A stretch of 64,000 nucleotides of DNA, taken from positions 1 to 64,000 of the forward strand of contig CAMDEA010000003.1 in assembly GCA_945893045.1 (NCBI GenBank), in the 5' to 3' direction. Position numbers and translations under genes: made by a program. The stretch comes from Planctomyces sp. SH-PL62 (GTDB lineage Bacteria > Planctomycetota > Planctomycetia > Planctomycetales > Planctomycetaceae). The notes under the pieces are model-generated. The model saw nothing but the letters and a program-made list of their open reading frames with translations. It made no database searches and was not told where the DNA came from. Positions 6,201 to 60,219 of this stretch are shown piece after piece (the stretch's first letter is position 1; each line of letters starts with the position of its first letter).

Positions 6201-7039
6201 ACACGATCAACGTCGCCAACAACGGCAACCAGGACGGCAACGGTGTTGTCGTGACCGTAAGTTTCCCAACCGCCGCATTGGAAAACGTCGTTGCATCGAA
6301 CGGGGGAATTGTGGACGCGGTCGCCGGCACGATCACTTGGAACCTTGGCAACCTCGCGGCCAGCGACTCGACGATGCTGACGGTCGACACACGAATTCGC
6401 GGCAGCATCAGCTCGCAAACATCGTCCATCACGCTGACCGCGACTGTCACGGACAATTGTCTGAACGGTCCCGATCCAACGCCGTTGAACAATCTTGGTC
6501 GCGATCTCGACAGCTTCCAGTTCTATGCCTTCGACAGCTTCCACGACTGGAAGGACATGCGAGTCGCCTGGCTGATGCCGCAATCGCAAACGGTCGGCCG
6601 AGCACTCTCACCGCTGCCGGTCGATCCGGTCTTCAGCGGCTTGACCGAGCCGGGGAGCACGCTGGTCGCTCGCATTTACGGTTCGGACGGCCGGTTGCTC
6701 GGTGACCGCCAGGTCGTCGCCGATGCGGGAGGCAACTGGATGGTCACGTTCCCCAACATGATCATCTACGAGCAACCACACCGCATGGAGATCATCGTCA
6801 CTCCGGCGATCAGCAACGTCGCGCACGAGAACGGCTTCAATCTCCGCCGCTACTTCCATCCGGCCATCCACGCCGGACTGGTCATGACCGAATCGCTGAG
6901 CGTCGCGGGGGTCTTTCGCAACCGAGCCTTCAACATCGTTGAAGCTCAGCACTCGGCCAACACGCACCCGCTTGGTTTCCAGTGGTACTCGCACGCCTAC
7001 GAGCTGAACGCGGCGTCGTCGAACATCTCGCAGATGTGA
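257..7039 (+). CDS. Giant cadherin-like / DUF11 repeat surface protein (5' end unresolved)
   Basis: This is the C-terminal part of a very large exported or cell-surface protein, 2260 residues from the GTG at 257. It starts with a beta-propeller-like stretch. Two ~110-residue repeats (nt ~736-1395) follow, then eight almost identical 103-residue cadherin-like repeats (nt ~1396-3867), each opening with PVNDPPVADD and containing DTDLDGD, a likely Ca-binding motif. One diverged and one further repeat come next, then five DUF11-like domains (nt ~4480-6520). The C-terminal ~170 residues are of a type I associate with planctomycete surface proteins. The start is unsafe: the frame is open back to 62 and the residues encoded at ~120-256 fit a coding region, but a TGA at 59-61 blocks it. 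The true N-terminus is therefore probably upstream, with a frameshift, a nonsense mutation or an assembly error. Adhesion or surface-layer function is inferred. Confidence 0.85.
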   Translation: MATLVGATGTTGIADLGSSAVNVNDAPINSVPTTQSTNEDTARVFSVGNGNLISITDVDAGTASLQVTLTGANGAISLSGTTGLTFTVGDGTTDSTMTFTGTLTNINAALAGLSFLSTANFFGPASLQITTNDQGNTGSGGAMSDSDTIGINVASVSDAPTTSNNSVTTSEETPFTFAAANFPFSDGDTGDTLQSVRITALPSVGTLTLGGIAVTLNQIIPTASLGTLAFTPALNGNGSPYTTFDFQVSDGTLFSTSATMTVNVTPVNDPPTTSNNSVTTPEDTPITFATASFPFSDADITDTLQSVMITALPVVGTLTLGGVAVTLNQIIPTASLGTLVFTPALNANGSPYTTFNFQVSDGTVFSSSATLTVNVTPVNDPPVADDETFTVAEDGSVVIDVLLGDTDLDGDSLTVTAIDGTPLSLVSPVTIATGVVSLNADGTLTFTPNMNFHGPAAFDYTLSDGNGGSDIGSVSGNVTPVNDPPVADDESFTVAEDGSVIIDVLLGDTDLDGDALTVTEIDGTPLSLGSPVTIATGVVSLNADGTLTFTPNADFNGPAAFDYTVSDGNGGTDVGHVSGNVTPVNDPPVADDESFTVAEDGSAIIDVLLGDTDLDGDSLSVTEIDGTPLSLGSPVTIATGLVSLNADGTLTFTPNANFNGPAAFDYTVSDGNGGTDVGHVSGNVTPVNDPPVADDETFTVAEDGSVVIDVITGDTDLDGDTLTVTEIDGTPISLGSPVTIATGVVSLNADGTLTFTPNANFNGPAAFDYTVSDGNGGTDVGHVSGTVTPVNDPPVADDESFTVAEDGSVIIDVLLGDTDLDGDALTVTEIDGTPISLGSPVTSATGLVSLNADGTLTFTPNANFHGPAAFDYTVSDGNGGTDSGHVSGNVTPVNDPPVADDETFTVAEDGSVVIDVLTGDTDLDGDTLSVSAIDGTPISLGSPVTIATGVVSLNADGTLTFTPNVNFNGPAAFDYTVSDGNGGTDIGNVSGNVTPVNDPPVADDETFTVAEDGSVVIDVLTGDTDLDGDTLAVTEIDGTPLSLGSPVTIATGVVSLNADGTLTFTPNANFNGPAAFDYTVSDGNGGTDVGHVSGTVTPVNDPPVADDESFTVAEDGSVVIDVITGDTDLDGDTLTVTDIDGTPISLGSPVTIATGVVNLNADGTLTFTPNANFNGPAAFDYTVSDGNGGTDVGHVSGNVAPVNDSPVARDNDYVAAEDTAVFGNVLADNTGAGVDSDVDGDSLSVTTTPIVDVTNGLLGLAGDGSFTYTPNLGFNGIDSFTYEIRDLGGLTSTAVVTIAVGAVNDPPVADDETFTVAEEGSVIIPVLNGDSDLDGDALTVTHIDGLPISIGSPVTIATGTVSLNADGTLTFTPNTNFNGPVAFDYTVSDGNGGTDVGNVSGNVTPTTVSVMKSLFDSSDPITVGSNVTIGEELCFALFVTMSEGNSTDLILTELLPDGLRYDSWTLITSVAASNGLLSGDFNGSVPAPSVSGGTFDGEDVSFTFGMITVATDGVATNDSFVLLVHAFVSDVPSNHTPLAGQPTLTNLVTADVSNPQPPVSSNPFDVTVVEPDLSVTIDNGVATLTAGQTASYSITIANDGDSLATGLVLSGSLPLDRVTFVASDDAANFSLDGSGNFTWTPAVGSLAPSGTLTLLLTVQVNSSLASGISDVTIPVSVTHGNIEPTPINNIAADMDSLEAAPDLRLTKTDFTNSISPGQGSVYTLNVGNFGTQEATNVIVTESIPIGATFNPALSDPAWTNVGGGIYQYSILSLPAGAAFNVNFSVLIDNPTLAGLVQIINIASIADDGTNGSDLDPTDNSATDTNNLDALPMYDVGINDLQLSAFPGESLTYYVNFNNYGLQNGTGVVVSASFPTAILTNVVASNGGIVDAMAGTITWNVGTLSANDPRTLTVTAEVRATTSSGATDFTLTAAIIDDGANGPDPDLSDNSAADTDALDAQPDYAVTIDDGSTFVRPGDPLMYTINVANNGNQDGNGVVVTVSFPTAALENVVASNGGIVDAVAGTITWNLGNLAASDSTMLTVDTRIRGSISSQTSSITLTATVTDNCLNGPDPTPLNNLGRDLDSFQFYAFDSFHDWKDMRVAWLMPQSQTVGRALSPLPVDPVFSGLTEPGSTLVARIYGSDGRLLGDRQVVADAGGNWMVTFPNMIIYEQPHRMEIIVTPAISNVAHENGFNLRRYFHPAIHAGLVMTESLSVAGVFRNRAFNIVEAQHSANTHPLGFQWYSHAYELNAASSNISQM
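1396..3867 (+). repeat. Eight tandem 309-bp repeats inside the surface-protein gene
   Basis: The 309-bp period is seen at nucleotide and protein level. Each unit encodes one 103-residue cadherin-like domain. Units differ by only a few residues (DVLLG, DVITG or DVLTG; DET or DES). Such high identity suggests recent duplication or gene conversion, and the locus is prone to length variation and to assembly collapse. Confidence 0.9.
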
Positions 7040-7414
7040 CGCGAATTGTCTCGCCCCCATCCAGCTTGTCTGGATGGAGCGACCGATGGCGTGCTAGCGA
7101 CGACGTCTGTCCGTTCATTTTCTGAGACCCCATCCGCCTTGTGCGGATGGTGAAAAAGAGGATTGAATTAGGAACGTCGAAGTATCTGATTCACCATCCG
7201 CACGAGGCGGATGGGGTCTGACAACAGCTTGAGGATCTGCTGATTTAGCTCGCCATCTTTCGCTCCATCGACGCGAGGTCGATGGGGGCGTGGTGTGAAT
7301 CCGTCGCCGGTGCAAAGCGCGTCGTACATCTGAATAACTTTGCCGATCTGCAAAACGCCTTGACCCTTTGACGGCGGCTGGCCTATACGGCCGCGCGAGG
7401 AGATCCAGGCTTCC
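7040..7414. other. Intergenic region with hairpin repeats
   Basis: No gene is seen. The region holds a single hairpin (7057-7077, stem CCATCCAG with loop CTTGT) and a nested inverted repeat (7125-7219). The last ~25 bases carry an AGGAG ribosome site for the permease that follows. Confidence 0.6.
7125..7219. repeat. Nested palindrome, CATCCGC family
   Basis: Two 30-base arms (7125-7154 and 7190-7219) are inverted copies, with one or two mismatches. Each arm is itself a hairpin of CATCCGC and GCGGATG around a short loop. The architecture matches the GTAG-headed elements elsewhere in the window. Confidence 0.7.
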
Positions 7415-8590: not shown

Positions 8591-9465
8591 GCCGAGATCA
8601 TTCCCTCGCGAATCGCGGCGAACAGACAGGCTGCGACCAGATCGGCGGTCGTGCCTGGATTCCGGCGATGCCCGTCCGCTCGCAGCCAATGATCGAACTC
8701 GATCAAGCACTCGCCTCGCATGTCCGATGCGAGCGGCAGCCCCGCGAGTACTTGCAAACAATGCCGAGCACGACGCGAGGCTTCTTGAGCCACTTCCGCT
8801 CCGCACTTACGAGCGATCAGCGTATCAGGATGCTCGGCCATGAGCCGCAGTTGCAGTTCGATGATCGCCGCTTCCCAATGCGGTGCGAAGTCACTGCCGA
8901 TGGAGGCCAGAAACGGAGCGCCTTCCTGCAAGACCCAGGCAAAACCGTTGGCGTACTGTGCCGCGATACTGTCGCGCTCGGCGGCCAGCGTCATGACTTC
9001 CAGCAGCGTTCCGGTCGGCTCGTCAGCGACATCTTCGCTCGCGGAAGTGCCGAGTCCTCCGGGCTGAGCCAATCGAATCGCGCGATACACCCAGGCCGCA
9101 TCTTCGCGAGTCAACCGGCCGAGCACGTTGCCGATGCCGTCGCGCAGTGGCCGATCCCGCGGCACCGCCGCCAGCGGCGCGAGCAACAACACGATCCCCA
9201 AATTCGTGTTGGACGTGACGACCGCGCGCGTCGCCTCGATGGCTTGAAAGATCGTGCGACCAACTCCCACATCAACCGCGTGAGCCAACACCGGAGCGAT
9301 CACTTCGGCCGAACGCACGAAATCCTCAAACGTCAAATCGGGAAACGCCGCGCGCGGATGCACATTTCCAGGCTTCGCGGCCGATGCTTCCAAAACGCAG
9401 GCCAGACGAATCGCCTCCGCCAAATGTGTGTCAGCATCAAACTCAGCGAGCGGTGAAACAGACAT
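8581..9465 (-). CDS. CitG/MdcB-like triphosphoribosyl-dephospho-CoA synthase family protein
   Basis: A 294-residue protein with hallmark family motifs: KPGNVHP near residue 32, a GIGN stretch, GLGTSASED and a C-terminal NPGTTADLVAA. The family transfers a phosphoribosyl-type prosthetic precursor from ATP to dephospho-CoA (CitG, MdcB). No citrate lyase or malonate decarboxylase gene is nearby, so that substrate is doubtful here. CitG-like proteins also occur beside tetrahydromethanopterin C1-transfer genes in some bacteria, and planctomycetes use that cofactor, so a cofactor role is possible (inference). The gene is transcribed away from the GH57 gene and is convergent with the LptF-like gene. 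Confidence 0.75.
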   Translation of the reverse strand: MSVSPLAEFDADTHLAEAIRLACVLEASAAKPGNVHPRAAFPDLTFEDFVRSAEVIAPVLAHAVDVGVGRTIFQAIEATRAVVTSNTNLGIVLLLAPLAAVPRDRPLRDGIGNVLGRLTREDAAWVYRAIRLAQPGGLGTSASEDVADEPTGTLLEVMTLAAERDSIAAQYANGFAWVLQEGAPFLASIGSDFAPHWEAAIIELQLRLMAEHPDTLIARKCGAEVAQEASRRARHCLQVLAGLPLASDMRGECLIEFDHWLRADGHRRNPGTTADLVAACLFAAIREGMISAQC

Positions 9466-9611: not shown

Positions 9612-11852
9612 ATGCAGCCGGTTTCGTTGGCGTTCTTTTGGCATCAGCATCAGCCGTACTACCCCAATGACCTCACGGGCGAGAACGAGTTTCCGTGGGT
9701 GCGACTGCATGGGACCAAAGACTATTGGGGCATGGCTCGGCACATTCAGGAAGTGCCGGAGTTCCGCTGCACGATCAATCTCGTGCCGAGTTTGCTGGTG
9801 CAGTTGCTGAAGTACACCGACGGCGGCGGCAGCGATCGGCACCTGGATGTCTCGCGAATGCCGGCGGATGGATTGTCGCACGCCGACGCCACGTATCTGC
9901 TCGATCATTTTTTCATGGCCAACGGCGAAAGCATGATTCGGCCGTCGCCGCGCTATCACGAGTTGTTCCTGAAGCGGAAAGTCGGCACCGATTCGGCCGA
10001 GTCGGCGCTGTCGCGATTCTCTCCCCGTGATCTCCGTGACCTGCAAGTCTGGAGCAACCTCGCCTGGATGCACCCGATTTTGTTCGAGGTCGATACCGAC
10101 TTGCGCGCCTTCCGCCTCAAAGGCCAGTCGTATTCCGAAGCGGACAAAGCGTGGCTGCTCGACAAGCAGGCGGAGGTGTTGAAGCTGATCATCCCGATGC
10201 ACCGCGAATTGGCCAAAGGGGGACAAGTCGAGCTGACCACGACGCCGTTCTATCACCCGATTCTGCCGCTGCTGTGGGACAAGCGATTGGCTCGGCAGGC
10301 GATGCCGGATTGCGAACTCCCCAAGCATCTCGACAGCTATCGCGAGGACGCCGTCGAGCACCTGCGCCGCGCGGTCGCGTTTCACGAACAACTCTTCGGT
10401 GAGAAGCCGCGCGGCATGTGGCCGTCGGAAGGCTCGGTCGCGCAAGAGATCATCGGAGCCATCGCCGATGTCGGCATCGAATGGATCGCCACCGACGAAG
10501 AGATCCTGGTGGCCTCCACCGGCGGCCGAGTCAGCCGCGATTCGCACGGGCATCAACGCCATCCCGAATTGCTGTACCGGCCGTGGCTCGCGGCCGACGG
10601 CGACAAGCAACTGCAAATGGTCTTCCGCGACAAAGGCTTGTCCGACTTGATCGGCTTCCAATATCAGCGAGCCGATGACGTCCTGGCCGCAATGGACATG
10701 TTGGGCCGCATCGAAGCGATCGGCCAGGCGACCGAATCGGCCAACGGCGGCCGGCCGACACTCGTCCCAATCATTCTCGACGGCGAAAACTGCTGGGAGT
10801 ACTACCGCGACGGCGGAGTCACCTTCCTGCGCACGCTGTATCACGAAGCCGCGCGGCGCGGTTCCATCAACCCCGTCCGCATCGGCGATCATCTTCGCGA
10901 GCATCCCGCAACCGACCACATCGACCGCCTGTTCGCCGGCAGTTGGATCTCACACAACTTCGCCATCTGGATCGGCCACCACGAAGACCGCACCGCCTGG
11001 GACTTGTTGCACGACGCACGCGAACAATTGAAACGCGTCACCTCAGACAAAGTGCCGCCTGACAAACTCGCTCAAGCCTGGCAAGAACTCTTCATCGCCG
11101 AAGGGAGCGATTGGTTCTGGTGGTACGGTCCGGAGTTTGGTTCGGCTCAAGACAAACTCTTCGACCGACTGTTCCGCACGCACCTGCAAAACATCTACTC
11201 GCTGCTGGGCGAACCGGCTCCCGCGAACCTGAATGAGCCGATCAAACGGAACGGTCATCGCCGGATGCACACGTTGCCGAGCGGCTTCCTGCCCGTGAAG
11301 GTCGATGGCCGCGCGACGTTCTTCGAATGGACCAGCGCGGGAGTCTACGAAGCGGGCAGCGAGCGGGGCACGATGGCTCAAACTACCGAGGGGCTGATCC
11401 GTCGCATCCACCTTGGTTTCGACAAGACGCGGTTCTTGCTGCGAGTGGACACGGCCAGCCGCGCTCGCGAGGACTTTCAGCGACAAGAGATTGATGAACT
11501 CCGCATCCGCTTCGTCGAGCCGGAAGGACTGGAGTTGACCGTCAGCGGTCTTACTGACGAGTCGCCAACAGTCACGCTCAATGCTGACTTGCCCAACGTA
11601 GACCGGTCACTCCGTGACCGGAATTCGGGTCACGGAGTGACCCGTCTACTTTCCGCTGGCGAAGCCGCGATCGGACCAATCTTCGAACTCAGCGTGCAAT
11701 TGACCGCGCTGGACGCGGAACCCGGCAGCGTGCTCAAGTTCTTCGTCGAGGTCTTCTCGCACGGCCAAAGCACCGACCGCGCCCCGCGAGAAACGACCCT
11801 CGAATTGACCGTCCCGCCTCCCGACTTCGAGCAAATCATGTGGCAGGTGTGA
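9612..11852 (+). CDS. Glycoside hydrolase family 57 (alpha-amylase / glucanotransferase type)
   Basis: A 746-residue GH57 enzyme, probably acting on alpha-glucans such as glycogen. GH57 motifs appear in order: HQHQPYY near residue 11, a long helical insert, MWPSEGSV near residue 270 with the expected catalytic Glu, and DGENCWEYY near residue 390 with the expected acid/base Asp. The last ~180 residues form a beta-rich C-terminal domain. A GGAG sits 5 nt upstream of the ATG. A 52-bp nested palindrome (11598-11649) is inserted in the C-terminal domain and translated in frame as [18 protein letters not shown], so this part is not conserved function. No signal peptide is seen, so it is likely cytoplasmic. 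Exact substrate specificity cannot be read. Confidence 0.87.
11598..11649. repeat. GTAG-headed nested palindrome inside the GH57 gene
   Basis: It starts GTAGACCGGTCAC and ends GTGACCCGTCTAC. Each arm is itself a hairpin (GGTCAC, TCC, GTGACC). Same family as 30245-30296, 38135-38184 and 60166-60219, but here it lies within a coding sequence and keeps the frame open. Confidence 0.85.
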
Positions 11853-22914: not shown

Positions 22915-23994
22915 ATGTCTGAAGCTGCTCCGCCCGTTCCCACCGCTCCGCTCGATGATGCCGAAGCCGCGCGCGAGCGAGAGGCTCAAGCGATTCGCGG
23001 ACTGGCGATGGCCTATTCCCGGATGCGCGAGGAAATCGGCAAGGTGATCGTCGGCCAGCGCGATGTCGTCGATCAATTACTGATCGCACTCTTCAGCGGC
23101 GGGCACAGCTTGCTGATCGGAGTGCCGGGATTAGCCAAGACGCTGCTGGTCAACACGCTGTCGCGGATCATGACGCTGTCGTTCCGCCGCATTCAGTTCA
23201 CACCCGATCTGATGCCGTCGGACATCACCGGCACCGACGTGCTCCGCGACGATCCGGAGACCGGGCATCGCGGCTTCCAATTCATGCAGGGGCCGATCTT
23301 CACGAACATCCTGCTGGCGGACGAAATCAACCGCACGCCTCCCAAGACGCAGGCCGCACTGCTGGAAGCGATGCAGGAGAAGCACGTCACCGTCGGCAGC
23401 AACACCTACTTGTTGCCCGCGCCGTTCTTCGTGCTCGCCACGCAAAATCCCATCGAACAAGAAGGGACTTATCCGCTGCCCGAGGCACAGCTCGACCGCT
23501 TCATGTTCAACATCGTCGTCGCCTATCCCAACGCGGCCGAAGAGCTACGCATCCTCAAACAAACGACCGGCGGCGAGAGCCCGCAACTGACGCCGGCACT
23601 CAGCGGCCGGCAGATCCTCGCGCTGCAAGAAGTCGTCCGCAAAGTTCCGGTGGCCGAGCATGTCTTCATCTACGCCCGCGATCTCGTCCGAGCGACCCGG
23701 CCCAACGAACCTGAAGCCGCCGACTTCGTCAAGAAATACATCGGCTGGGGAGCCGGCCCGCGCGCCGGCCAGTATCTGATCCTCGGCGCGAAAGCCCGCG
23801 CCATTCTGGAGGGCCGCTTCCACGTCAGCCCCGACGATATTAAAGCGGTCGCTCATCCGGTGCTGAGGCATCGCATCGTCACGACGTTTCAGGCTCACAG
23901 TGACGGGGTCTCGGCGGATCGTGTGATCGACATGCTGCTGGAAAAGATTCCGGTGGAGGTCCAACAACGCGCGTCGAAACTGGCCGGGAAGTAG
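22915..23994 (+). CDS. MoxR-family AAA+ ATPase
   Basis: A 359-residue MoxR ATPase, a chaperone-like AAA+ protein that usually works with VWA-domain partners to mature or activate enzymes. Visible motifs: Walker A GVPGLAKT near residue 67, [12 protein letters not shown], Walker B LLADEINR near residue 138, sensor-1 region [22 protein letters not shown] (near 180-200) with the arginine region, then a helical lid domain. No DUF58 or VWA partner follows here; the downstream stretch is a decayed glycosyltransferase. The ATG at 22915 gives the standard family length. Confidence 0.92.
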
Positions 23995-24923: not shown

Positions 24924-27900
24924 ATGTCCGCGTCTGAACAACCGAAGTTGGAACCGACGCAGTCGGAGTCGCCGGACGATCCGAACGTCGCGGCGAATTT
25001 GAACGCCCCTGCCTTGGCTGCGGATGAAACGCCGGCCGTCGCTGTCGCGTGGTTGTCACCCGACAAGCGCGTTGCGAAACAGGACTCCGCCAATGCCGGT
25101 GCAGCAGTCCAGTCGATTGGACCGTATCGCGTCGAGCGGCGTTTGGGGCAAGGCGGTTTCGGCGCCGTGTATCTGGCGATGGACGAGGAGTTGCATCGCC
25201 GCGTGGCGATCAAGGTTCCCAAGCGACTCGCCGCAGCGCAGGTGGCCGAATACCGCGAAGAAGCTCAGAAGCTGGCGTGGTTGGAACATCCGGGGGTCGT
25301 GCCGATCTACACCATCGGGCACACGGACGAGTTCCCGGTGTTCTTGGTCACGAAATTTATCGAAGGTGGCACGCTGGCCGAATGGGCGCAGCGCGAGCGT
25401 CCCGATTATCTGACCGTCGCGCGTGTGATTGCCGAAGTCGCCGAAGCGTTACATGCCACGCACAACAAAGGGATTTTTCATCGGGACATCAAGCCCGCCA
25501 ACATTCTGATGGACGCGCAGGGCAAACCGTTTCTCGCGGACTTCGGTTTGGCATTGAAAGAAGGACACGGGCAGGACGCCGCGCCGGAAATTCTCGGCAC
25601 GCCCGCCTACATGAGTCCCGAACAAGCTGCGGGCGAAGGGCATCGCGTGGACGGGCAGACGGACATCTTCAGTCTGGGTGTCGTGCTCTACGAATTGCTC
25701 GCGGGCATGCGTCCGTTTCGCGCCAGCGAAAAACTGGCACCGCGCGAGCAACAGTCGCAACTCTTGGAAAACGTCAAGACACTGGACCCTCGACCGCCGC
25801 GGCAGATCAACGATCAAGTCCCCAAGGAACTGGAACGCATCTGTCTGAAAGCGCTCGCCAAGCGCAAGCCGGAGCGTTACACGATCGCGCGCGACATGGC
25901 GGACGACTTGCGGCACTTCGTCGCGAACCCCGCCGCACACGAGGCGGCCTCGGCGCGGATTCAAGTCCCTCCAGCGCGGGAATTCGCCACACCGCCGCTC
26001 ACGCCAACGCCAGGGACCGCGACCGCGCTCGGCGTGGGGCTCCCGACCCCGCCGCAAATGATCTCGGATCGCGAGCCGTTGAAGATCGTCCCGAAAGGAC
26101 TCCGTTCGTTTGATGCGGGTGATGCGAGTTTCTTTCTCGACTTGCTCCCCGGCCCGCGCGATCGTGACGGCTTGCCGGAGAGCATTCGTTATTGGAAGAC
26201 GCGGATCGAGTCGCGCGATGCCGAAGTCACGTTTGCGGCCGGCGTGTTGTACGGCCCGTCCGGTTGCGGAAAGTCGAGCTTGGTGAAAGCCGGTTTGATT
26301 CCGCATCTGGCCAATGACATCGTCCCGATCTATCTCGAAGCCACCGGGGACGACACTGAACAACGCCTCTCGCGAGCGATCCGCCGCGCCTGTCCGGCAT
26401 TTGGCGATGACCTTTCGCTGACGCTGCTGTTGAAGAATCTGCGTCGCGGCGTGGGTTTACCCAGCGGCAAGAAAGCGCTGATCGTGCTCGATCAGTTTGA
26501 GCAATGGCTGCACGCCAAACGGGGACAGACAAATCAGGAACTCCCCGCCGCGTTACGGCAATGCGACGGCGAACGAGTGCAATGCCTGATCCTCGTCCGC
26601 GACGACTTCTGGCTGGCGATCAGTCACTTCCTGGAAGAACTCGAAATCCCGCTGGACCAGGCCCGCAACTACGCGATGGCCGATCTCTTCGATCCACCCC
26701 ACGCAAGAAAAGTCCTCGACGCTTTCGGAGTCGCCTTCGGGCAAGTAGGTTGGGACTCCGTCCCGACCAATCCCCCCGCCGGGCATCGGATCGCCGGCCA
26801 AGCGGGTCGGGACGGAGTCCCAACCTACAACGCCTTCCTCGATCAATCCATCGCCGCACTGACCGAAGAAGGCAAGATCATCAGCGTCCGTCTCGCGCTG
26901 TTCGCCGAGATGGTCAAATCAAAACCGTGGACACCGCAAACTCTGCAAGCGATCGGCGGAGTCGAAGGTGTCGGCGTCACGTTTCTCGAAGAGACTTTCT
27001 CAGCGAGCAATGCGCCGATGGCCTATCGAGCACATCAAGTCGCCGTGCGCGGCGTGCTGAAAGCCTTGCTGCCGGAAGTCGGTACCGACATCAAAGGCCA
27101 CCGCATCTCACGCGATGCGCTGCTGCAAGCGAGTGGATACGCTCAACACCCGCGCGACTTCGAGTCATTACTGCGCATCCTGGATCGCGACCTGCGCCTG
27201 ATCACGCCAGTCGACGAAGACCCAGGCGAGCGGGGCGGCATCAGCCCCCCGGTGGATTCATCGCTCGACTCCAACCGGGGGGCTGACGCCGCCCCACTCG
27301 CCAAGACTCGCGCGCAGTACCAGCTCGCTCATGACTACCTCGTCCCCAGCATTCGCAACTGGCTGACGAAGAAGCAGCGTGAGACTCGCAAGGGCCGCGC
27401 CGAATTGCGTCTTGAAGAGCGGGCCGCGATTTGGAATAGCAAGCCGTTGAATCGAAATCTGCCGGCGTGGTGGGAGCATCTCAACATTCGCTGGTTCGTG
27501 CCGCAGATATCTTGGACTGCCAAGCAGCGAGCGATGATGCGGCGTTCGGCGCGAGTGCATGGGATGCGAGCCATGTTCGGCGCGATGGTACTGGCTGTGA
27601 TGGTGACGAGTGGCCTGTGGCTGAATGCACGCATGACCGAACAACGGCAAGCGGATCGCGCCGAAGGATTGGTCAACGCCTTAGCCGCCGCAAAGATTGG
27701 CGACGTTTCAAAACTCATCGAGCAACTCGAACCGTATCGCGCTTGGGCCGATCCGTTGCTGTACGCGCGGCAGCGCGGATCGGCCGAAGATTCGTCGGAG
27801 CGGTTGAACGTGTCGCTGGCCTTGCTGCCGGTCGATCGCGATCAGGTCGCGTTTTTGAAGCAACGGTTGCTGACCTGCGATCCGCAGAGCTTTCCGATTT

Positions 27901-29747
27901 TGCGGGACGCGCTGGCAGAAGAATCGAAGTCAGGCGGACTGCGTGAAGAGTTGTGGAGCGTGTTGCGTGGCCAGCAGCCCTCCGGCGAACGGTTCCGTGC
28001 GGCGTGGGGGTTAGCGACGTTTGATACTGCGGATGGCAAGCCGGACGAAGCGGGGTGGCAAGCGGTCGCTCCATTCTTGGCCAGCGAACTGTTGGCGGCG
28101 TGCGGGAAGAATCCCAGTCATTACGAGCCGTTGCTCAACGCGCTGCGTCCGGTGGGCGGGGTGCTGCGCGAACCTTTGGCGAATGTGTTTCGCGACCCGG
28201 CGAAACCGGATGGCGAGCGACGGATGGCCGTCAATTTTCTGGCTGAGTTCGTGGCGACGCGGCCCGATCAGCTTGTGGACCTGTTGGTCGATGCCGAGCC
28301 GGCTTACTTCGCAGTGCTGTTCGACAAGCTGTCATCGCAGCGCGACGCCGCTGTGGAAAAGTTGTCGAAGGTGTTGGAGCGAACGCCGCCGAATGACGCG
28401 GAGAACTCGGACCCACGTCGAGAAGTGTTGGCGATTCGTCAGGCGCGGGCGGCGGCGGCCTTATTGCGATTGGATCATTCCAAAACGGTTTGGCCATTGT
28501 TGCAACGCTTGAAAGATTGGGACGACCCGCGCCGCCGCAGTGAGTTGATTCACGCGGTCAAACCATTGGGGGTCGATCCGCGATTGCTCGCGCGTAGGTT
28601 GGGACTCCGTCCCGACCAGTCTTCCATTCAGGTCGGGACGGAGTCCCAACCTACGGAAACCGACCCATCCGCACGGCGCGCGTTGCTGCTGGCCTTAGGC
28701 GAATGGTCCGTGGCCGGTGCGGAGCCGGTTGATCCAGTCACTCGCGACGAGAAGCATTCCGCCGATGCCCCCTTCACGGCAGAGGAGATCGAGGCGATGT
28801 GGCCCAAACTTTTGGAGACGTATCGGTCTGATCCAGACGCGGGCATTCACGGCGCGTCCGCATGGTTGTTGCGGCAATGGGGCCAGAAGGAAAAGTTGTT
28901 GGAGATTGATCGCGAGTTGGCAGCCAAGCCAGCAGACAATGAGAACGGGTCGCGTGAATGGTTCATCAACGGTCAAGGCCAAACGCTGGTGACGTTCCGT
29001 GGCCCGGTCGAATTCTTGATTGGTTCTCCGGCGTCGGAAGTGGATCGCATTGCCGGAAATGAGGACCAAGTCCGCAAGCGGATCGGCCGGTCGTTTCAGA
29101 TGTCGGCTTACGAAGTCACCGTCGAGCAATGGCAACGCCATCGGAAGGACTTGAACTACGCTGCCGATCGTTCGCGTGAATCGGATGCACCGTGGAATGC
29201 GCCGCAGTGGTACGACGCGGCCCGCTACTGCAATTGGCTCAGCGAACAGGAAGGGATTCCCAAGGAGCAATGGTGCTACGACCCCGATCAAAAGTTTCAG
29301 TCCGGGATGACATTACCGAAGGACTATTTGTCGCGCACGGGCTACCGCTTGCCGAGCGAAGCGGAGTGGGAACTTGCCTGCCGAGCCGGAGCGGTCACGA
29401 GTCGGTACTACGGTGAGACAGCGACACTTCTGGGACGATATGCGTGGTACTCGAAGAACTCGCAAGACCGTTGGATGTTGCCGATCGGCAGCTTGAAGCC
29501 GAATGATCGCGGACTGTTCGACATGCAAGGCAACGCGTTCGAGTGGTGCCAGGAGGCGTATGGAGATTATGCGGAGGGTGACGACGTCGAAGACACTCAA
29601 CCGTTGTCGAATGAGCAATATCGTGTTTTGCGTGGCGCGTCGTTCAGCGTTCAACCGTCGGGCGTTCGCTCCTGCCTCCGCCTCAACTTCGCACCCTCGT
29701 TCCGGAACTTCCTCTTCGGTTTCCGCGTGGCGAGGACTAACAACTGA
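24924..29747 (+). CDS. DGR target: Ser/Thr kinase - STAND-type NTPase - membrane - FGE/C-type-lectin protein
   Basis: A 1607-residue multidomain protein. Kinase domain about 66-350: GQGGFG loop, VAIK Lys, HRDIKPAN near 186, DFG near 206, GTPAYMSPEQ near 225. An nSTAND-like NTPase follows, with Walker A GPSGCGKSS near 445 and Walker B ALIVLDQFEQ near 520. One TM segment is near 880-905 and a helical, HEAT-like region spans about 910-1340. The C-terminal FGE-sulfatase (C-type-lectin fold) domain (about 1350-1607) has GYRLPSEAEWE and GLFDMQGNAFEW. The last 40 residues are the DGR variable repeat. The RGGSW-plus-Cys catalytic region of true FGE is replaced, so the fold probably binds ligand rather than oxidising Cys. 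Likely role: a ligand sensor signalling through kinase and NTPase (inference). Two GTAG palindromes and one other inverted repeat are translated within it. The ATG at 24924 is preferred over an upstream TTG. Confidence 0.9.
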   Translation: MSASEQPKLEPTQSESPDDPNVAANLNAPALAADETPAVAVAWLSPDKRVAKQDSANAGAAVQSIGPYRVERRLGQGGFGAVYLAMDEELHRRVAIKVPKRLAAAQVAEYREEAQKLAWLEHPGVVPIYTIGHTDEFPVFLVTKFIEGGTLAEWAQRERPDYLTVARVIAEVAEALHATHNKGIFHRDIKPANILMDAQGKPFLADFGLALKEGHGQDAAPEILGTPAYMSPEQAAGEGHRVDGQTDIFSLGVVLYELLAGMRPFRASEKLAPREQQSQLLENVKTLDPRPPRQINDQVPKELERICLKALAKRKPERYTIARDMADDLRHFVANPAAHEAASARIQVPPAREFATPPLTPTPGTATALGVGLPTPPQMISDREPLKIVPKGLRSFDAGDASFFLDLLPGPRDRDGLPESIRYWKTRIESRDAEVTFAAGVLYGPSGCGKSSLVKAGLIPHLANDIVPIYLEATGDDTEQRLSRAIRRACPAFGDDLSLTLLLKNLRRGVGLPSGKKALIVLDQFEQWLHAKRGQTNQELPAALRQCDGERVQCLILVRDDFWLAISHFLEELEIPLDQARNYAMADLFDPPHARKVLDAFGVAFGQVGWDSVPTNPPAGHRIAGQAGRDGVPTYNAFLDQSIAALTEEGKIISVRLALFAEMVKSKPWTPQTLQAIGGVEGVGVTFLEETFSASNAPMAYRAHQVAVRGVLKALLPEVGTDIKGHRISRDALLQASGYAQHPRDFESLLRILDRDLRLITPVDEDPGERGGISPPVDSSLDSNRGADAAPLAKTRAQYQLAHDYLVPSIRNWLTKKQRETRKGRAELRLEERAAIWNSKPLNRNLPAWWEHLNIRWFVPQISWTAKQRAMMRRSARVHGMRAMFGAMVLAVMVTSGLWLNARMTEQRQADRAEGLVNALAAAKIGDVSKLIEQLEPYRAWADPLLYARQRGSAEDSSERLNVSLALLPVDRDQVAFLKQRLLTCDPQSFPILRDALAEESKSGGLREELWSVLRGQQPSGERFRAAWGLATFDTADGKPDEAGWQAVAPFLASELLAACGKNPSHYEPLLNALRPVGGVLREPLANVFRDPAKPDGERRMAVNFLAEFVATRPDQLVDLLVDAEPAYFAVLFDKLSSQRDAAVEKLSKVLERTPPNDAENSDPRREVLAIRQARAAAALLRLDHSKTVWPLLQRLKDWDDPRRRSELIHAVKPLGVDPRLLARRLGLRPDQSSIQVGTESQPTETDPSARRALLLALGEWSVAGAEPVDPVTRDEKHSADAPFTAEEIEAMWPKLLETYRSDPDAGIHGASAWLLRQWGQKEKLLEIDRELAAKPADNENGSREWFINGQGQTLVTFRGPVEFLIGSPASEVDRIAGNEDQVRKRIGRSFQMSAYEVTVEQWQRHRKDLNYAADRSRESDAPWNAPQWYDAARYCNWLSEQEGIPKEQWCYDPDQKFQSGMTLPKDYLSRTGYRLPSEAEWELACRAGAVTSRYYGETATLLGRYAWYSKNSQDRWMLPIGSLKPNDRGLFDMQGNAFEWCQEAYGDYAEGDDVEDTQPLSNEQYRVLRGASFSVQPSGVRSCLRLNFAPSFRNFLFGFRVARTNN
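26745..26828. repeat. GTAG palindrome translated within the DGR target gene (1)
   Basis: 84 nt (28 codons), from GTAGGTTGGGACTCCGTCCC to CGGAGTCCCAACCTAC. It lies in the region after the NTPase core and reads through as VGWDSVPT...GRDGVPTYN. A length divisible by three keeps the frame. Confidence 0.9.
27226..27301. repeat. Inverted repeat translated within the DGR target gene (2)
   Basis: Arms GCGAGCGGGGCGGCATCAGC and its imperfect complement (27275-27301) flank a ~22-nt loop. It is translated in frame as RGGISPP...RGADAAP. Non-GTAG head. Confidence 0.75.
28594..28654. repeat. GTAG palindrome translated within the DGR target gene (3)
   Basis: 61 nt, same stem family as 26745-26828 (GTTGGGACTCCGTCCC). 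It lies in the helical region and is read in another frame, as RRLGLRPDQ...VGTESQPT. Confidence 0.88.
29619..29738 (+). other. DGR variable repeat (VR)
   Basis: 120 bp, codons 1566-1605 of the target gene, ending two codons before the stop. It aligns without gaps to the TR at 30020-30139. Differences fall on codons 1, 10, 11, 15, 19, 20, 22, 24, 27, 28, 31 and 32; all are at TR adenines except one C-to-G in codon 19 (TCC to TGC). The last 24 nt (TTCGGTTTCCGCGTGGCGAG and on to ACT) are identical to TR and would serve as the initiation-of-mutagenic-homology end. Confidence 0.95.
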
Positions 29748-29869
29748 GCCGCTTTGCAGCATTACCACTAAAAACCGTGGATGAAGAGAGCGGTTGGAAG
29801 ATGCGCGAGATGTGGCTGGAGAAAGAAACAGCCCGCCGCAGGCGCGCGATTTTTTTTGGCGAGCGGGCC

Positions 29870-29969
29870 GGGGTCGGGTGTTCGGTTTTTCGGAATTGGC
29901 GGGAGGTGAGCATCATTTGCAATCCTCGCCTCCTTCCCGCCAATTCCGAAAAACCGAACACCCGACCCC
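29870..29969. repeat. 35-bp perfect inverted repeat between VR and TR
   Basis: Arms 29870-29904 and 29935-29969 are perfect complements, beginning GGGGTCGGGTGTTCGGTTTT, with partial pairing continuing inward around a ~14-nt loop. This would be a very stable hairpin or cruciform about 130 bp past the VR stop. DGR retrohoming in some systems needs a hairpin just 3' of VR, but those are shorter and closer, so the role is open. Confidence 0.85.
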
Positions 29970-30019
29970 TGACTGTAGACACGGCATCGCTACAGTCCGC
30001 CCCCAAGGGCAGTGGTCGC

Positions 30020-30139
30020 AAACGTGTTTTGCGTGGCGCGTCGTTCAACAATCAACCGTCGAACGTTCGCTCCTCCAACCGCAACAACAACGCACCCACG
30101 AACCGGAACAACAACTTCGGTTTCCGCGTGGCGAGGACT
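30020..30139 (+). other. DGR template repeat (TR)
   Basis: 120 bp rich in AAC codons: 10 of 40 triplets are AAC and one is AAT, the signature of an adenine-mutagenised template. 20 of the 31 adenines differ in VR. Read in the VR frame it would encode mainly Asn at the variable positions. It lies 281 bp downstream of VR on the same strand, but opposite to the RT gene. The transcript that would serve as template must therefore run from a promoter upstream of ~30000 in the plus direction. Confidence 0.95.
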
Positions 30140-30244
30140 CTGTGGCCGTCTTCACGGACGGTCGTGCCAGAATCCGATCGTTCTCGAACTTTCGGAGCGT
30201 GCCAAGTCCATAGTCCAGGCCACACCCGGCGTCGGCGAAGCAAC

Positions 30245-30296
30245 GTAGACGAGTCACTCCGTGACTCGAATTCCGGTCGCGGAGTGACCGGTCTAC
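30245..30296. repeat. GTAG-headed palindrome beside the TR
   Basis: It starts GTAGACGAGTCACTCCGTGA and ends GGAGTGACCGGTCTAC. The two arms are of slightly different versions of the same family. It lies 106 bp after TR and 23 bp before the avd stop codon. Confidence 0.85.
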
Positions 30297-30318
30297 GAGG
30301 GGCGTCGGCCAAAGCCAC

Positions 30319-30735
30319 TCAGGGCTTGGCGGGTCTGGTAGGTCCACCCGGACTCGAACGCTCCGCCAAGCCCGCTGGCTTTGCAGACGCTGTCTTTTCC
30401 GTCGCCTTCAACCAACCGCCAATCATCCGCCCAATCTCGTCCAAGCTCTGGCAGGCAAATCCAAAACTATTCGTCTTCCAGCATTGCAGGTCATGAGCCA
30501 GTCGCAATTGGAACCGTAACACCTCCAGCTTCAGATTCGCCGCCTGCAACAAGCCTTGCCGATCGCTGCGATACTTCGCCTGCAATAACAACTCCAACAC
30601 GTCGTACAACTGTTGCTCGATCCGCGTCCCCAGCGTGTAACGATGGTTTCTCGGAAATCGCCCCGCGTGCTGGGCGCACCACAACACGAAGTCATAAGTC
30701 TTGTTGATGACGATCAATTCGTCGGTCGCTTTCAT
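30319..30735 (-). CDS. avd: DGR accessory protein Avd (four-helix bundle)
   Basis: A 138-residue basic, all-helical protein of the four-helix-bundle family that includes Avd and the 23S rRNA intervening-sequence proteins. Pattern: IVINKTYDFVLW helix 1, PRNHRYTLGTRIE turn, YDVLELLLQAKY helix 2, LEVLRFQLRLAHDL helix 3 and a last helix with LDEIGRMIGGWLKA. Avd forms a pentamer that binds the DGR reverse transcriptase and TR RNA and is needed for mutagenic retrohoming. The start at 30735 is set by AAAGGA 7 nt upstream; the longer frame to 30831 merely reads a GTAG palindrome. The gene lies downstream of the RT gene on the same strand, 97 bp apart, so the pair is probably co-transcribed. Confidence 0.88.
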   Translation of the reverse strand: MKATDELIVINKTYDFVLWCAQHAGRFPRNHRYTLGTRIEQQLYDVLELLLQAKYRSDRQGLLQAANLKLEVLRFQLRLAHDLQCWKTNSFGFACQSLDEIGRMIGGWLKATEKTASAKPAGLAERSSPGGPTRPAKP

Positions 30736-30753
30736 GTCAGTTCCTTTCGAGAG

Positions 30754-30836
30754 GTAGGTTGGGACTCTGTCCCGACATCGGCCGGTCGGGATGGAATCCC
30801 AACTTACGGACGGGTCGGGACGGAGTCCCAACCTAC
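30754..30836. repeat. Three-armed GTAG palindrome between RT and avd
   Basis: Three related hairpin units of the GTTGGGACTCCGTCCC family in a row (30754-30779, ~30784-30807, 30814-30836), ending CCTAC. On the minus strand its GTAG provides the RT stop codon TAG (30835-30833). Confidence 0.85.
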
Positions 30837-31999
30837 GGCTGTTTTGAAAACGTGATCTCGCGCAGCAGTCGCCGAATCAATCGCTTGGAATTGGCCTGCC
30901 GCGCGTGCCCCAGCCAACTCATGATCCTCTGCCGAATCTTGGGAAGCGTGATCCGCCCCTCGCGAAACGCACACTGCATTCGCCGCACTCGCTTCCAAAA
31001 CCGCCGCAGATTGCTCTTGGCCAACAGACGATGCGTCGGAAATACGCGGTAGCCCAGAAACGGAATCCCACATCGCACGGGAAAGATCACGTTCTTTTTT
31101 TGGTGCGGCTTCAATCGCAGCGCCGCTAAAAACTCGGCAATCCGCCGCCGGCAATCACTCAGTTCCGCTTTGGACCGCGCGAAGACCAGAAAGTCATCGA
31201 CGTAACGGATGTAGCCACCGGGGCGCAATTGCTCGGTTACGAAATGGTCCAGAGGGTCCAAGTACACGTTGGCGAAGAACTGACTGGTCTGATTCCCCAA
31301 CGGCACTCCGCGCCGCCGCTCGCTGGGACTCAGCAAATCGTCGCCGGGAAACCAATCGAGCACCGGCTCCTGCGGATTGCTGTGGTCGATGATCAAATCG
31401 CACAGCCACAGCACATCCGGGTCTTTGATCTTTCTCCGAATCAGCCGCTTGAGAATCTGATGGTCGATCGACGGAAAGAATTTGCGAATGTCCGCCTTGA
31501 GCACAAACGGAAACTTCTGGGCAAACTCTTGGCAACGCCGCACCGCCGCGTGCGTCCCTTTGCCGACTCGACAGGCGTAAGAGTCGAAGACAAACGCCCG
31601 CTCGAAGATCGGTTCCAGCACACTCGTCAGCGCGTGATGCACGACGCGGTCTCGAAACGGAGCCGCACTAATCAACCGCCGCTTCGGCTCATGCACGAAA
31701 AACGTTCGATAGCCTCCCGGCCGATAACGCCGGTCTCGCAATTCCTCGTACAGCCGCAACAGTTCCAACTCACGAAAAAACGCGAACCGCCCAGTGCTCC
31801 GCCGCGAACGCTTCCGTCGTTCCGCCTTCCGCGCGGCACGGCACAATGCGGCGAACGAATAAACTTCCGACCAAAGCTCACGGCTGCGACGCATGGAAGA
31901 CTCGATGGTGACGTTGCCAAGTTTCGACCGGTCGCGGAGTGGTTTCATCATCAGCAACTGGCACCGCTCCCTGAACGTCGCGTCTCGTGTCTCGATCAT
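30833..31999 (-). CDS. DGR-type reverse transcriptase
   Basis: A 388-residue reverse transcriptase. Motifs in order: RDRVVHHAL, VLKADIRKFFPSIDH with the first catalytic Asp, GVPLGNQTSQFFANVYLD (the LGNxxSQ block typical of DGR RTs in place of the QGxxxS of other retroelements), YIRYVDDFLVF catalytic loop, KKNV and GIPFLGYRVFP in the thumb region. The basic C-terminus has no maturase, endonuclease or protease domain, as expected of DGR RTs. It copies TR RNA into cDNA with errors at adenines. The start is uncertain: the ATG at 31999 lacks a clear ribosome site and Met17/18 (~31951) is an alternative. The stop is donated by a GTAG palindrome. Confidence 0.93.
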   Translation of the reverse strand: MIETRDATFRERCQLLMMKPLRDRSKLGNVTIESSMRRSRELWSEVYSFAALCRAARKAERRKRSRRSTGRFAFFRELELLRLYEELRDRRYRPGGYRTFFVHEPKRRLISAAPFRDRVVHHALTSVLEPIFERAFVFDSYACRVGKGTHAAVRRCQEFAQKFPFVLKADIRKFFPSIDHQILKRLIRRKIKDPDVLWLCDLIIDHSNPQEPVLDWFPGDDLLSPSERRRGVPLGNQTSQFFANVYLDPLDHFVTEQLRPGGYIRYVDDFLVFARSKAELSDCRRRIAEFLAALRLKPHQKKNVIFPVRCGIPFLGYRVFPTHRLLAKSNLRRFWKRVRRMQCAFREGRITLPKIRQRIMSWLGHARQANSKRLIRRLLREITFSKQP

Positions 32000-32376
32000 C
32001 GCGCAGCTTGACAGTGTGAGTGGTCAAAACTAATGTCACCGCCCCGCTCAGCAGGAAGGGGCGTTCTGGCCGTCGAAAGTCGTCTCGCAAATGACTTTGG
32101 GCGACTCGACACAGTTCTGGATGGTTGGCAGCACCGCGTGGTTTCGCGTGAGGGCGTCCGATGAGATAGACGTGTCGGTTCCAAGGATGATCGCCGAGTT
32201 TGCTCGGTATTGTCCGTCGATGGCTGGCCTTCGTGGCTGAGTCCGTTGCCGCCTGCGGCAGCGGTGAGAGAAGTGGGTCTCGTGCCCGCTTTTTTTGTTT
32301 CGGGACAGTTCTTTTTGGAGCTGATTGATATCCGTAGTTGAGGCTGCTCTCACCCAGCCTTGACGAAAGGAAGATA
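32000..32376. other. Leader region of nusA / upstream region of RT
   Basis: A divergent intergenic region with no recognised gene. It carries CCGCCCCGCTCAGCAGG (32039-32055), matching 16 of 17 bases in the DGR target leader. There is a short palindrome TGCCGC/GCGGCA (~32247-32260), a terminator-like hairpin (32273-32300), and a strong Shine-Dalgarno for nusA (AAAGGAAG, 32366-32373). Confidence 0.55.
32273..32300 (+). terminator. Possible intrinsic terminator or attenuator before nusA
   Basis: GTGGG (32273-32277) pairs with CCCGC (32285-32289) around a 7-nt loop and is followed by a run of about seven T. It sits ~77 nt before nusA, so it could end a leader transcript. Stem is short, hence low confidence. 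Confidence 0.4.
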
Positions 32377-33795
32377 ATGAACGGTGCCGACGTCCTACGA
32401 TTCGTCGATGCTCTGCATCGCGACCGGAATATCGACAAGTCCATCGTCATCGAGGCGCTGGAACAGGCGGTGTTGTCGGCAGCGAAAAAGCATTACGGCG
32501 AAGACTTCGAAGTCACGGTGGCCATCGACCAAGCTACCGGCAAACCGACTGTGCTCTGTGACGGGAAGGACATTGAACCCGACATGCTCGGCGAGATTCT
32601 GGGACGCATCTCGTCGCAGACCGCCAAGCAAGTGCTGATGCAACGTATCCGCGAAGCTGAGCGTGACTCGATCTTCGACGAATACGAAGACCTCAAGGGG
32701 CAACTCGTCACCGGTACGATCACCCGGTTTGAAGGGGGGTCGGCCCTCGTCACGCTCAGCAAGATTGACGGCTTCCTACCCAAGAGCGAGCAGATCCCCG
32801 GCGAGTCGCATCGCATCGGCGAACGAATTCGGGCCGTGGTCATCGAAGTTCGCAAAGCCGGCAGCCGCGTGAAGATCATCCTGTCTCGCACGCATCCGGA
32901 CCTCGTGCTGGAGTTGTTCAAGACGGAAATTCCCGAAGTCGCCGAGGGGATTATCGAAGTCCGCTCGTTGGCACGCGAAGCGGGATATCGTTCGAAGGTC
33001 GCTGTCTCCTGCTCTGACACGAAGATCGACTGCGTCGGGGCGTGCGTGGGCGTGCGTGGGGCGCGGATCAAGAACATTGTCGATGAGTTGGCGGGCGAGC
33101 GGATCGACATCGTGCGCTGGAATGACTCGCTGCAAGTGCTCGTGCCGAATGCTATGCAGCCGTCTGAGGTCGAGGACGTGATCCTCTGCCCGATGCTCGG
33201 CCGCGTGATTGTGCTGGTGCGGGAAGATCAGCTCTCGCTGGCGATCGGCAAGCGCGGACAGAATGTTCGACTGGCGTCGAAACTGGTCGGCTGGGACATC
33301 GAGGTGATGACTCGCGATGAGCTGAACGAGCAATTGGAAAAATCGGTCGCGGCGTTTTCACAAGTTCCACACATCACCGAAGAGCTGGCTGAGAGCCTCG
33401 TATCGCAAGGCTTCTTCAGCTTCTACGACTTGTCGGTGATTGAGCCGGATCAACTGCAAGAAATGAGCGGTTGCACGGCCGAGCAAATTGAAGAGGTCGT
33501 CGCGTATGCCGACATTGAAAGCGACAAGCAAGAAATCGAAGACAACCGCCGCAAGGCGGAATTGAAGCTGCAACGAGAGATCGACGCACGTGCGGCGTCT
33601 GCGCCCGCGAAAGCAGAAGCACCTCCCATCGAAGAAGTGCCCCTGAATGAGGACGCACCGCCGGCCGAAGCCTCTGCGGTGCCTGAGGAGGTTGTGGCGG
33701 AGTCGTCCGTTGCAGCCGAGTCTGCGTCGCCGGTCGCGGAAGCCGAACAACTCACAAGTGCCGAATCCGAACATCCCGCTCAGGTCGTTGAATAA
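32377..33795 (+). CDS. nusA: Transcription termination/antitermination factor NusA
   Basis: A 472-residue NusA, which binds RNA polymerase and controls pausing, termination and antitermination. Domains: N-terminal polymerase-binding domain (1-~125), S1 domain (~130-200, [12 protein letters not shown]), KH1 ([17 protein letters not shown]) and KH2 ([16 protein letters not shown]), then a helical segment ending in an Ala/Glu-rich tail. The ATG at 32377 is fixed by AAAGGAAG. First gene of nusA-infB-rbfA; rimP, which often precedes nusA, is absent. Confidence 0.96.
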
Positions 33796-38134: not shown

Positions 38135-38184
38135 GTAGACGAGTCACTCCGTGACTCGATTCGAGTCACGGAGTGACTCGTCTA
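38135..38184. repeat. GTAG-headed nested palindrome, GAGTCACTCCGTGACTC family
   Basis: It runs from GTAGACGAGTCACTCCGTGA to GGAGTGACTCGTCTAC, with nearly perfect arms separated by a few bases. Same family as 11598, 30245 and 60166. Confidence 0.9.
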
Positions 38185-47361: not shown

Positions 47362-47405
47362 GGAGTCGCTCCGCGACTCCGAGCCGAGTTGCGGAGCAAC
47401 TCGGC
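47362..47405. repeat. Two adjacent short hairpins
   Basis: GGAGTCGCTCCGCGACTCC (47362-47380) and GCCGAGTTGCGGAGCAACTCGGC (47383-47405) stand side by side in the gap between the DJ-1 and EVE genes, the second being an inverted, diverged version of the first. Confidence 0.6.
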
Positions 47406-60165: not shown

Positions 60166-60219
60166 GTAGACGAGTCACTCCGTGACTCGAACATTCCGGT
60201 CACGGAGTGACCGGTCTAC
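60166..60219. repeat. GTAG-headed nested palindrome, GAGTCACTCCGTGACTC family
   Basis: It starts GTAGACGAGTCACTCCGTGA and ends GGAGTGACCGGTCTAC, filling most of the space between RNase D and the oxidoreductase gene. Confidence 0.88.

Follow-up and report, generated by a model that had tools for sequence, protein, structure and literature searches.

The window, a stretch of 64,000 nt from Planctomyces sp. SH-PL62 (GCA_945893045.1, contig CAMDEA010000003.1, positions 1 to 64,000, forward strand), contains a diversity-generating retroelement (DGR), which is identified by A-specific differences between its TR and VR repeats, a DGR-type reverse transcriptase (RT), an Avd protein and a target protein with an FGE/CLec domain. 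The avd and RT genes lie on the strand opposite to TR and VR, a feature that was absent from the earlier note on this sequence. Jointly, the evidence points to a chromosomal DGR of the inverted type, with a separate plus-strand template RNA and a diversified sensor as its target, a reading to which we assign a probability of about 0.88. The source genome comprises 7.83 Mb in 251 contigs and is 89% complete.

The target gene (24924..29747, plus strand) codes for a protein of 1607 aa, which comprises a Pkinase domain (aa 68-323; HRD and DFG present), an nSTAND1 ATPase domain (matched over aa 431-568; GKS), a single stretch of moderate hydrophobicity near aa 884 and a C-terminal FGE-sulfatase/CLec domain (aa 1364-1604). 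The earlier proposal that the VR lies at the 3′ end of a C-type-lectin-like target is borne out by the match of the C-terminus to FGE-sulfatase (E 1.3e-34) and by its nearest solved sequence, the Treponema denticola variable protein 2y3c (E 1.1e-18). The fold match to 2y3c (E 1.5e-7) was obtained with a model of mean pLDDT 64.8, and the AlphaFold model of the lectin domain is weak in the VR, most of which (residues 217-248 of the domain model) has a pLDDT under 50; the surface-loop location of the variable residues named in the earlier note is accordingly a putative one. Among fifteen target proteins of relatives, hand-picked from the listed ORFs, the FGE domain is C-terminal in all (15/15), a kinase is present in six and an nSTAND1 or NACHT ATPase in six, TIR, SIR2, caspase or trypsin domains occur as single cases, and the kinase, nSTAND1 and FGE combination of the window target is also found in L035. 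By analogy with published systems, the target most likely serves as a diversified sensor setting off a kinase/STAND response in conflict or recognition. PADLOC matched the kinase (best model PD-T4-6) and the RT in the window, with no model matched for Avd. A MoxR-type AAA ATPase gene (22915-23994; PF07726, also bpMoxR) is located upstream of the target gene; MoxR proteins form part of published DGR-linked conflict systems.

The VR (29622..29738, plus strand) occupies the 3′ end of the target gene and aligns without gaps to the AAC-rich TR (30023..30139, plus strand) over 117 bp at an offset of 401. Of the 19 sites that distinguish the two repeats, 18 are adenines in the TR (A>T 11, A>G 4, A>C 3), the sole exception being a C>G change at 29674. 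As 28 of the 117 TR bases are adenines, the hypergeometric probability of this bias is 3.4e-13. The variable sites fall on codon positions 1, 2 and 3 in the proportions 9/10/0. The ungapped, A-specific character of the pair and the substitutions to G, C and T were thus correctly described beforehand, but the count given then, 21 differences with 20 at adenines over 120 bp, is slightly high; extension to 120 bp brings in three non-A differences, showing that the repeat has ended at 117 bp. Target, VR, TR, Avd and RT were all recovered approximately where the earlier note had placed them. Immediately 5′ of the TR lies the motif CCAAGGGCRGYGGTCGCAAA (30003..30022, plus strand), which by eye is common to the window and the related locus L005 and resembles the RT 3′ end that immediately precedes the TR in several same-strand relatives. 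When the source genome (89% complete) was searched with a degenerate TR pattern at up to three mismatches, this TR and this VR were the only matches. One TR is accompanied by two or three VR places in the relatives L038, L045, L046, L047, L049, L059 and L068; the window has one.

The avd gene (30319..30735, minus strand, stop at 30319) codes for a protein of 138 aa that matches NCBIfam NF033474 at E 7.2e-33, its 113 bits lying above the cut-off of 80, in keeping with its prior description as Avd-like. Avd is an accessory protein of many, not all, DGRs. The RT (30833..31999, minus strand) comprises 388 aa when read from the ATG at 31999; its true start may be M36 (31894), as the conserved region begins near there. 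The motifs PLGNQTSQ and YVDD can be read in the ORF, as the LGNxxSQ and YVDD motifs named earlier imply, and LGNQTSQ fits the (I/V/L)GxxxSQ pattern of DGR-clade RTs. Its best solved relative is 8ub7_A (E 2.1e-50), presumably the BPP-1 enzyme, whose partner chain carries the name Avd; the next is a group II RT (2.8e-23). One further match to the RT exists in its own genome, at 35% identity. The earlier note had set two tests, placement of the RT in the DGR clade and A-biased repeat pairs in relatives, and neither gave the outcome that would have spoken against a DGR. The RT nests among RTs that have TR/VR pairs, and A-biased pairs were found on the strand of the RT for 65 other RT ORFs and on the other strand for two, although the search in relatives asked for A- or T-biased pairs, so that the A-bias of the matches is what was sought. 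Compared with L005, the RT has a dN of 0.135, a dS of 0.863 and a dN/dS of 0.157, and on this sequence comparison it is under purifying selection; avd likewise has a low dN/dS, but its dS is saturated. Both frames are open in the window. On these sequence grounds the DGR is probably functional, and it may, as the earlier note had suggested, be active or recently active, in line with the selection on the RT and with the preserved TR-spacer helix described below.

TR and VR are read on the plus strand, avd and RT on the minus strand. The recurrence of this layout was assessed by checking the neighborhoods of related RTs in three ways, namely by A- or T-biased repeat pairs, AAC-rich TR motifs and the RNA model described below. 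For the 98 RT ORFs examined in the phylum (window included; the two pieces of L087 counted once; L070, which duplicates L005, and L069, whose only RT is a remote one, omitted), RT and TR share a strand in 87, are inverted in seven (the window, L005, L066, L106, L108, L110 and L117) and are undetermined in four. Repeat pairs alone give 65 same-strand and three inverted cases, and the inversions of L066, L108, L117 and L005 therefore rest on the motif or the RNA model. Viral-contig loci yielded 55 same-strand and no inverted cases, with 25/80 undetermined. With VR set on the plus strand, the order is VR+ TR+ avd- RT- in the window and VR+ avd- TR+ RT- in L005; L106 follows the window, as does L110, where the position of avd is less certain.

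That the genome is in 251 contigs, and that TR/VR repeats break assemblies, the L005 contig itself ending inside the VR, might suggest that the opposite-strand layout is an assembly error. We consider this extremely improbable, as L005, from a separate public assembly, shows the same relative strands with a different gene order, the spacer extends into the antisense end of an oppositely oriented gene (avd in the window, the RT in L005), and further inverted loci occur in other genomes. On a tree of 93 RTs, from which six short pieces were dropped, the inverted state amounts to two changes, also on the starred branches alone (five inverted rows), and a single clade of inverted RTs is rejected (p-AU 0.001; six rows, L117 added from the RNA model). 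Inversion must therefore have arisen at least twice among the RTs of this tree. L066, from the same genus as the window, is an inverted DGR (3796-4850) whose RT lacks the catalytic part and whose spacer RNA still scores 120 bits; its RT piece is nearest to those of L040 and L041, both not inverted, rather than to the window, hinting at a third origin of inversion. In L082, a reversed spacer-RNA match (8731-9169; 79.5 bits), with no recognizable TR end, is located just 5′ of a TR and spacer on the plus strand. Inverted spacer copies such as this could provide a route for a TR to flip against its RT.

The plus strand of the window is further predicted to encode a structured RNA (30119..30373), which overlaps and then follows the 3′ end of the TR and probably corresponds to the spacer of phage BPP-1. 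It was derived from an alignment of 24 TR 3′ flanks, mostly from the RT clade of the window, for which RNAalifold proposed 37 pairs, 36 of them counted. Paired bases make up 93.7% of the 854 cells over these 36 pairs, a share that leans towards structure because the structure was derived from the same alignment. Double changes occur in 29/36 pairs, and the covariation score amounts to 0.653, compared with 0.226 (sd 0.015) in shuffled alignments, 0/500 of which reach it, and at most 0.197 with slid partners. The resulting covariance model, R1, matches the window at 30119-30372 (133 bits; E 1.2e-39; the window sequence being part of the model) and, at an E limit of 0.05, gives 67 matches in 65/88 sources, including 50/73 sources outside the alignment. 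The hairpin P4 (30323..30372, plus strand; arms 30323-30333 and 30362-30372) is antisense to the last avd codons, and the L005 RNA (6920-7166) similarly overlaps the RT 3′ end (ORF to 6946) in antisense.

Since no Rfam family matched at gathering score in 29500-32400 (two matches, both far below) and R1 has no significant match on BPP-1 (NC_005357), the RNA might instead be a new element of this lineage and not a DGR spacer. Its position makes this very unlikely. R1 has 52 matches in sequences that are not part of the alignment; 43 of them abut a same-strand TR found by other means, and nine do not. The 28/80 viral-contig loci with a match all carry it on the RT strand; 19 of these matches abut a detected TR, seven have no detected pair and two lie 70-100 bases off, and 25 are situated directly before the RT, the place of the BPP-1 spacer. 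Furthermore, the BPP-1 TR end and spacer can pair (ATCACCT/AGGTGGT), and a GTCCTGCTTCGG...TTCGGCAAAA stretch of BPP-1 resembles that of the window, both by eye only.

Helix P1 of the spacer RNA pairs the last TR bases, GGACT (30135..30139, plus strand), with AGTCC (30205..30209, plus strand), a site 66 bases further on. In most relatives GCACT or GTACT is paired with AGTGC, and L005 has GCACT/AGTGC. GGACT/AGTCC occurs only in the window among the 24 sequences, with one base changed per arm (column pair 36/136: CG 18, UG 5, GC 1, the last being the window), so that both arms changed together and the pairing was kept. This change also bears on the repeat ends. In this region L005 and 9/10 relatives compared have AG(C/T)AC in the TR and AG(G/A)AC in the VR, whereas AGGACT stands in both repeats of the window; GGACT makes the TR end equal to the VR end, and the usual difference is gone. 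An IMH*/IMH difference of the BPP-1 type is accordingly absent at the repeat 3′ end in the window.

No strong hairpin was found directly 3′ of the VR: the folding of the 68 nt starting at the VR end is not stronger than that of shuffled sequences (z -0.70). Hairpins or cruciforms just 3′ of the VR are of the BPP-1 type and not common to all DGRs. The nearest strong hairpin, with a 35-bp perfect stem, begins about 130 bp past the VR, between VR and TR (29870..29969, no strand assigned). It was rejected as a homing hairpin of the BPP-1 type, being a dispersed repeat, one of about 21 places of similar sequence in the genome (40 scored of 66 candidates), and is probably not a DGR part. A dispersed 54-bp cruciform-like repeat (30244..30297, plus strand) lies in the P3 loop of the RNA, and a similar one occupies the same place in L005; with 79 matches in the genome (both strands counted; 40 scored of 193 candidates), it was likewise rejected as a DGR part. 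Its core, GAGTCACTCCGTGACTC, has six matches in the window (30251-30267, 38141-38179, 60172-60188, 11627-11643 and 47363-47379) and about 40 genome places among the candidates scored. Another palindrome, GTTGGGACTCCGTCCCGAC, is present with 0-2 mismatches in seven copies (26749-26824, 28598-28650 and 30758-30832), four of which fall within the target ORF, which stays open and reads through them as VGWDSVPT, GRDGVPT, RLGLRPD and VGTESQPT. A scan that may not suit the organism found no sigma-70-like promoter, including for the TR, at 29600-32400. This result, the missing hairpin and repeat-end difference, the lack of a significant R1 match on BPP-1 and the single non-A change in the VR speak against the main reading.

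The dispersed palindrome in the RNA loop, the lack of a hairpin just after the VR and the loss of the RT catalytic part from the inverted L066 of the same genus would all fit a DGR that worked until recently and is now silent, the inversion or the spacer palindrome having spoiled its expression or its RNA. Such silencing is unlikely, given the open RT and avd frames, the purifying selection on the RT, and L005, which has open RT and avd frames in spite of a palindrome at the same place. The P1 double change, found only in the window among the 24 sequences, moreover shows that pairing persisted once the window and L005 had diverged.

The inverted DGR is likely to operate as follows. RT and Avd would be made from a minus-strand RT-avd transcript, and a separate plus-strand transcript would carry the 5′ motif, TR and spacer. 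Through P1, the spacer would fold back onto the TR 3′ end, and it would be bound by RT-Avd, with cDNA beginning just upstream of P1. Template adenines would be misread, and the cDNA would replace the terminal VR of the kinase-STAND target, whose lectin-like domain would thereby present an altered ligand face. With cDNA starting upstream of P1, the helix would not be copied into the VR, and we propose that its sequence is consequently free to drift provided that a change in one arm is matched in the other. Inverted cassettes further imply that the enzyme mRNA and the template RNA need not be one transcript. A more tentative idea, which we think possible but rather doubtful, is that the template RNA (5′ motif, TR and spacer) is an autonomous guide-RNA module, independently transcribed and used in trans, against which the enzyme operon has repeatedly been flipped, that the resulting convergent enzyme and template transcripts can pair and could gate mutagenesis by antisense, and that P1, rather than IMH/IMH*, marks the template. 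Repeated inversions with a kept spacer, together with a natural compensatory change in P1, where cDNA is presumed to begin, open the question of template marking to direct testing, while the covariance model may help to find DGR template RNAs whose VR sits on another contig.

The available text of the sources cited here allows a comparison with known systems. A 2012 study (PMC3521204) presented inverted DGRs of Shewanella, Vibrio and Photobacterium as a rare type, DiGReF group 4, and the window shares with these an RT opposite TR, VR and target, the feature that defines an inverted DGR, as well as A-specific changes. It differs in belonging to another phylum, where inversion arose at least twice on the present RT tree, and in that avd is inverted along with the RT and the TR adjoins the avd 3′ end. 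In a 2019 survey of 948 DGRs, RT inversion, as seen in the window relative to the prototype, constitutes pattern G5, the prototype G1 being more than 20 times as frequent (PMC6642488). As far as their available text extends, PMC8144416 and PMC8867640 have no bearing on orientation. With BPP-1 (NC_005357), for which the role of the spacer is summarized in PMC12875486 and a VR hairpin is needed for efficient homing (PMC3240598), the window has in common the RT, Avd, TR, a VR in the 3′ part of the target and a structured spacer 3′ of the TR. In contrast, VR, avd, TR and RT are all on one strand in BPP-1, its hairpin right after the VR has no equivalent in the window, and its target is a tail protein, as opposed to a kinase-STAND protein. 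DGR targets with a hypervariable FGE/CLec domain include proteins with nSTAND1 or kinase domains (PMC10907252, PMC7159879); relative to those systems as presented in the available text, the window combines Pkinase and nSTAND1 in one protein, and its cassette is inverted. No published covarying DGR RNA was found in the literature, most subscription papers being outside the scope of the search. Inverted DGRs and STAND/kinase/FGE targets are already known types (PMC3521204, PMC6642488, PMC10907252, PMC7159879), and to these the present analysis adds the repeated inversions, a covarying spacer with wide matches and the P1 double change of the window.
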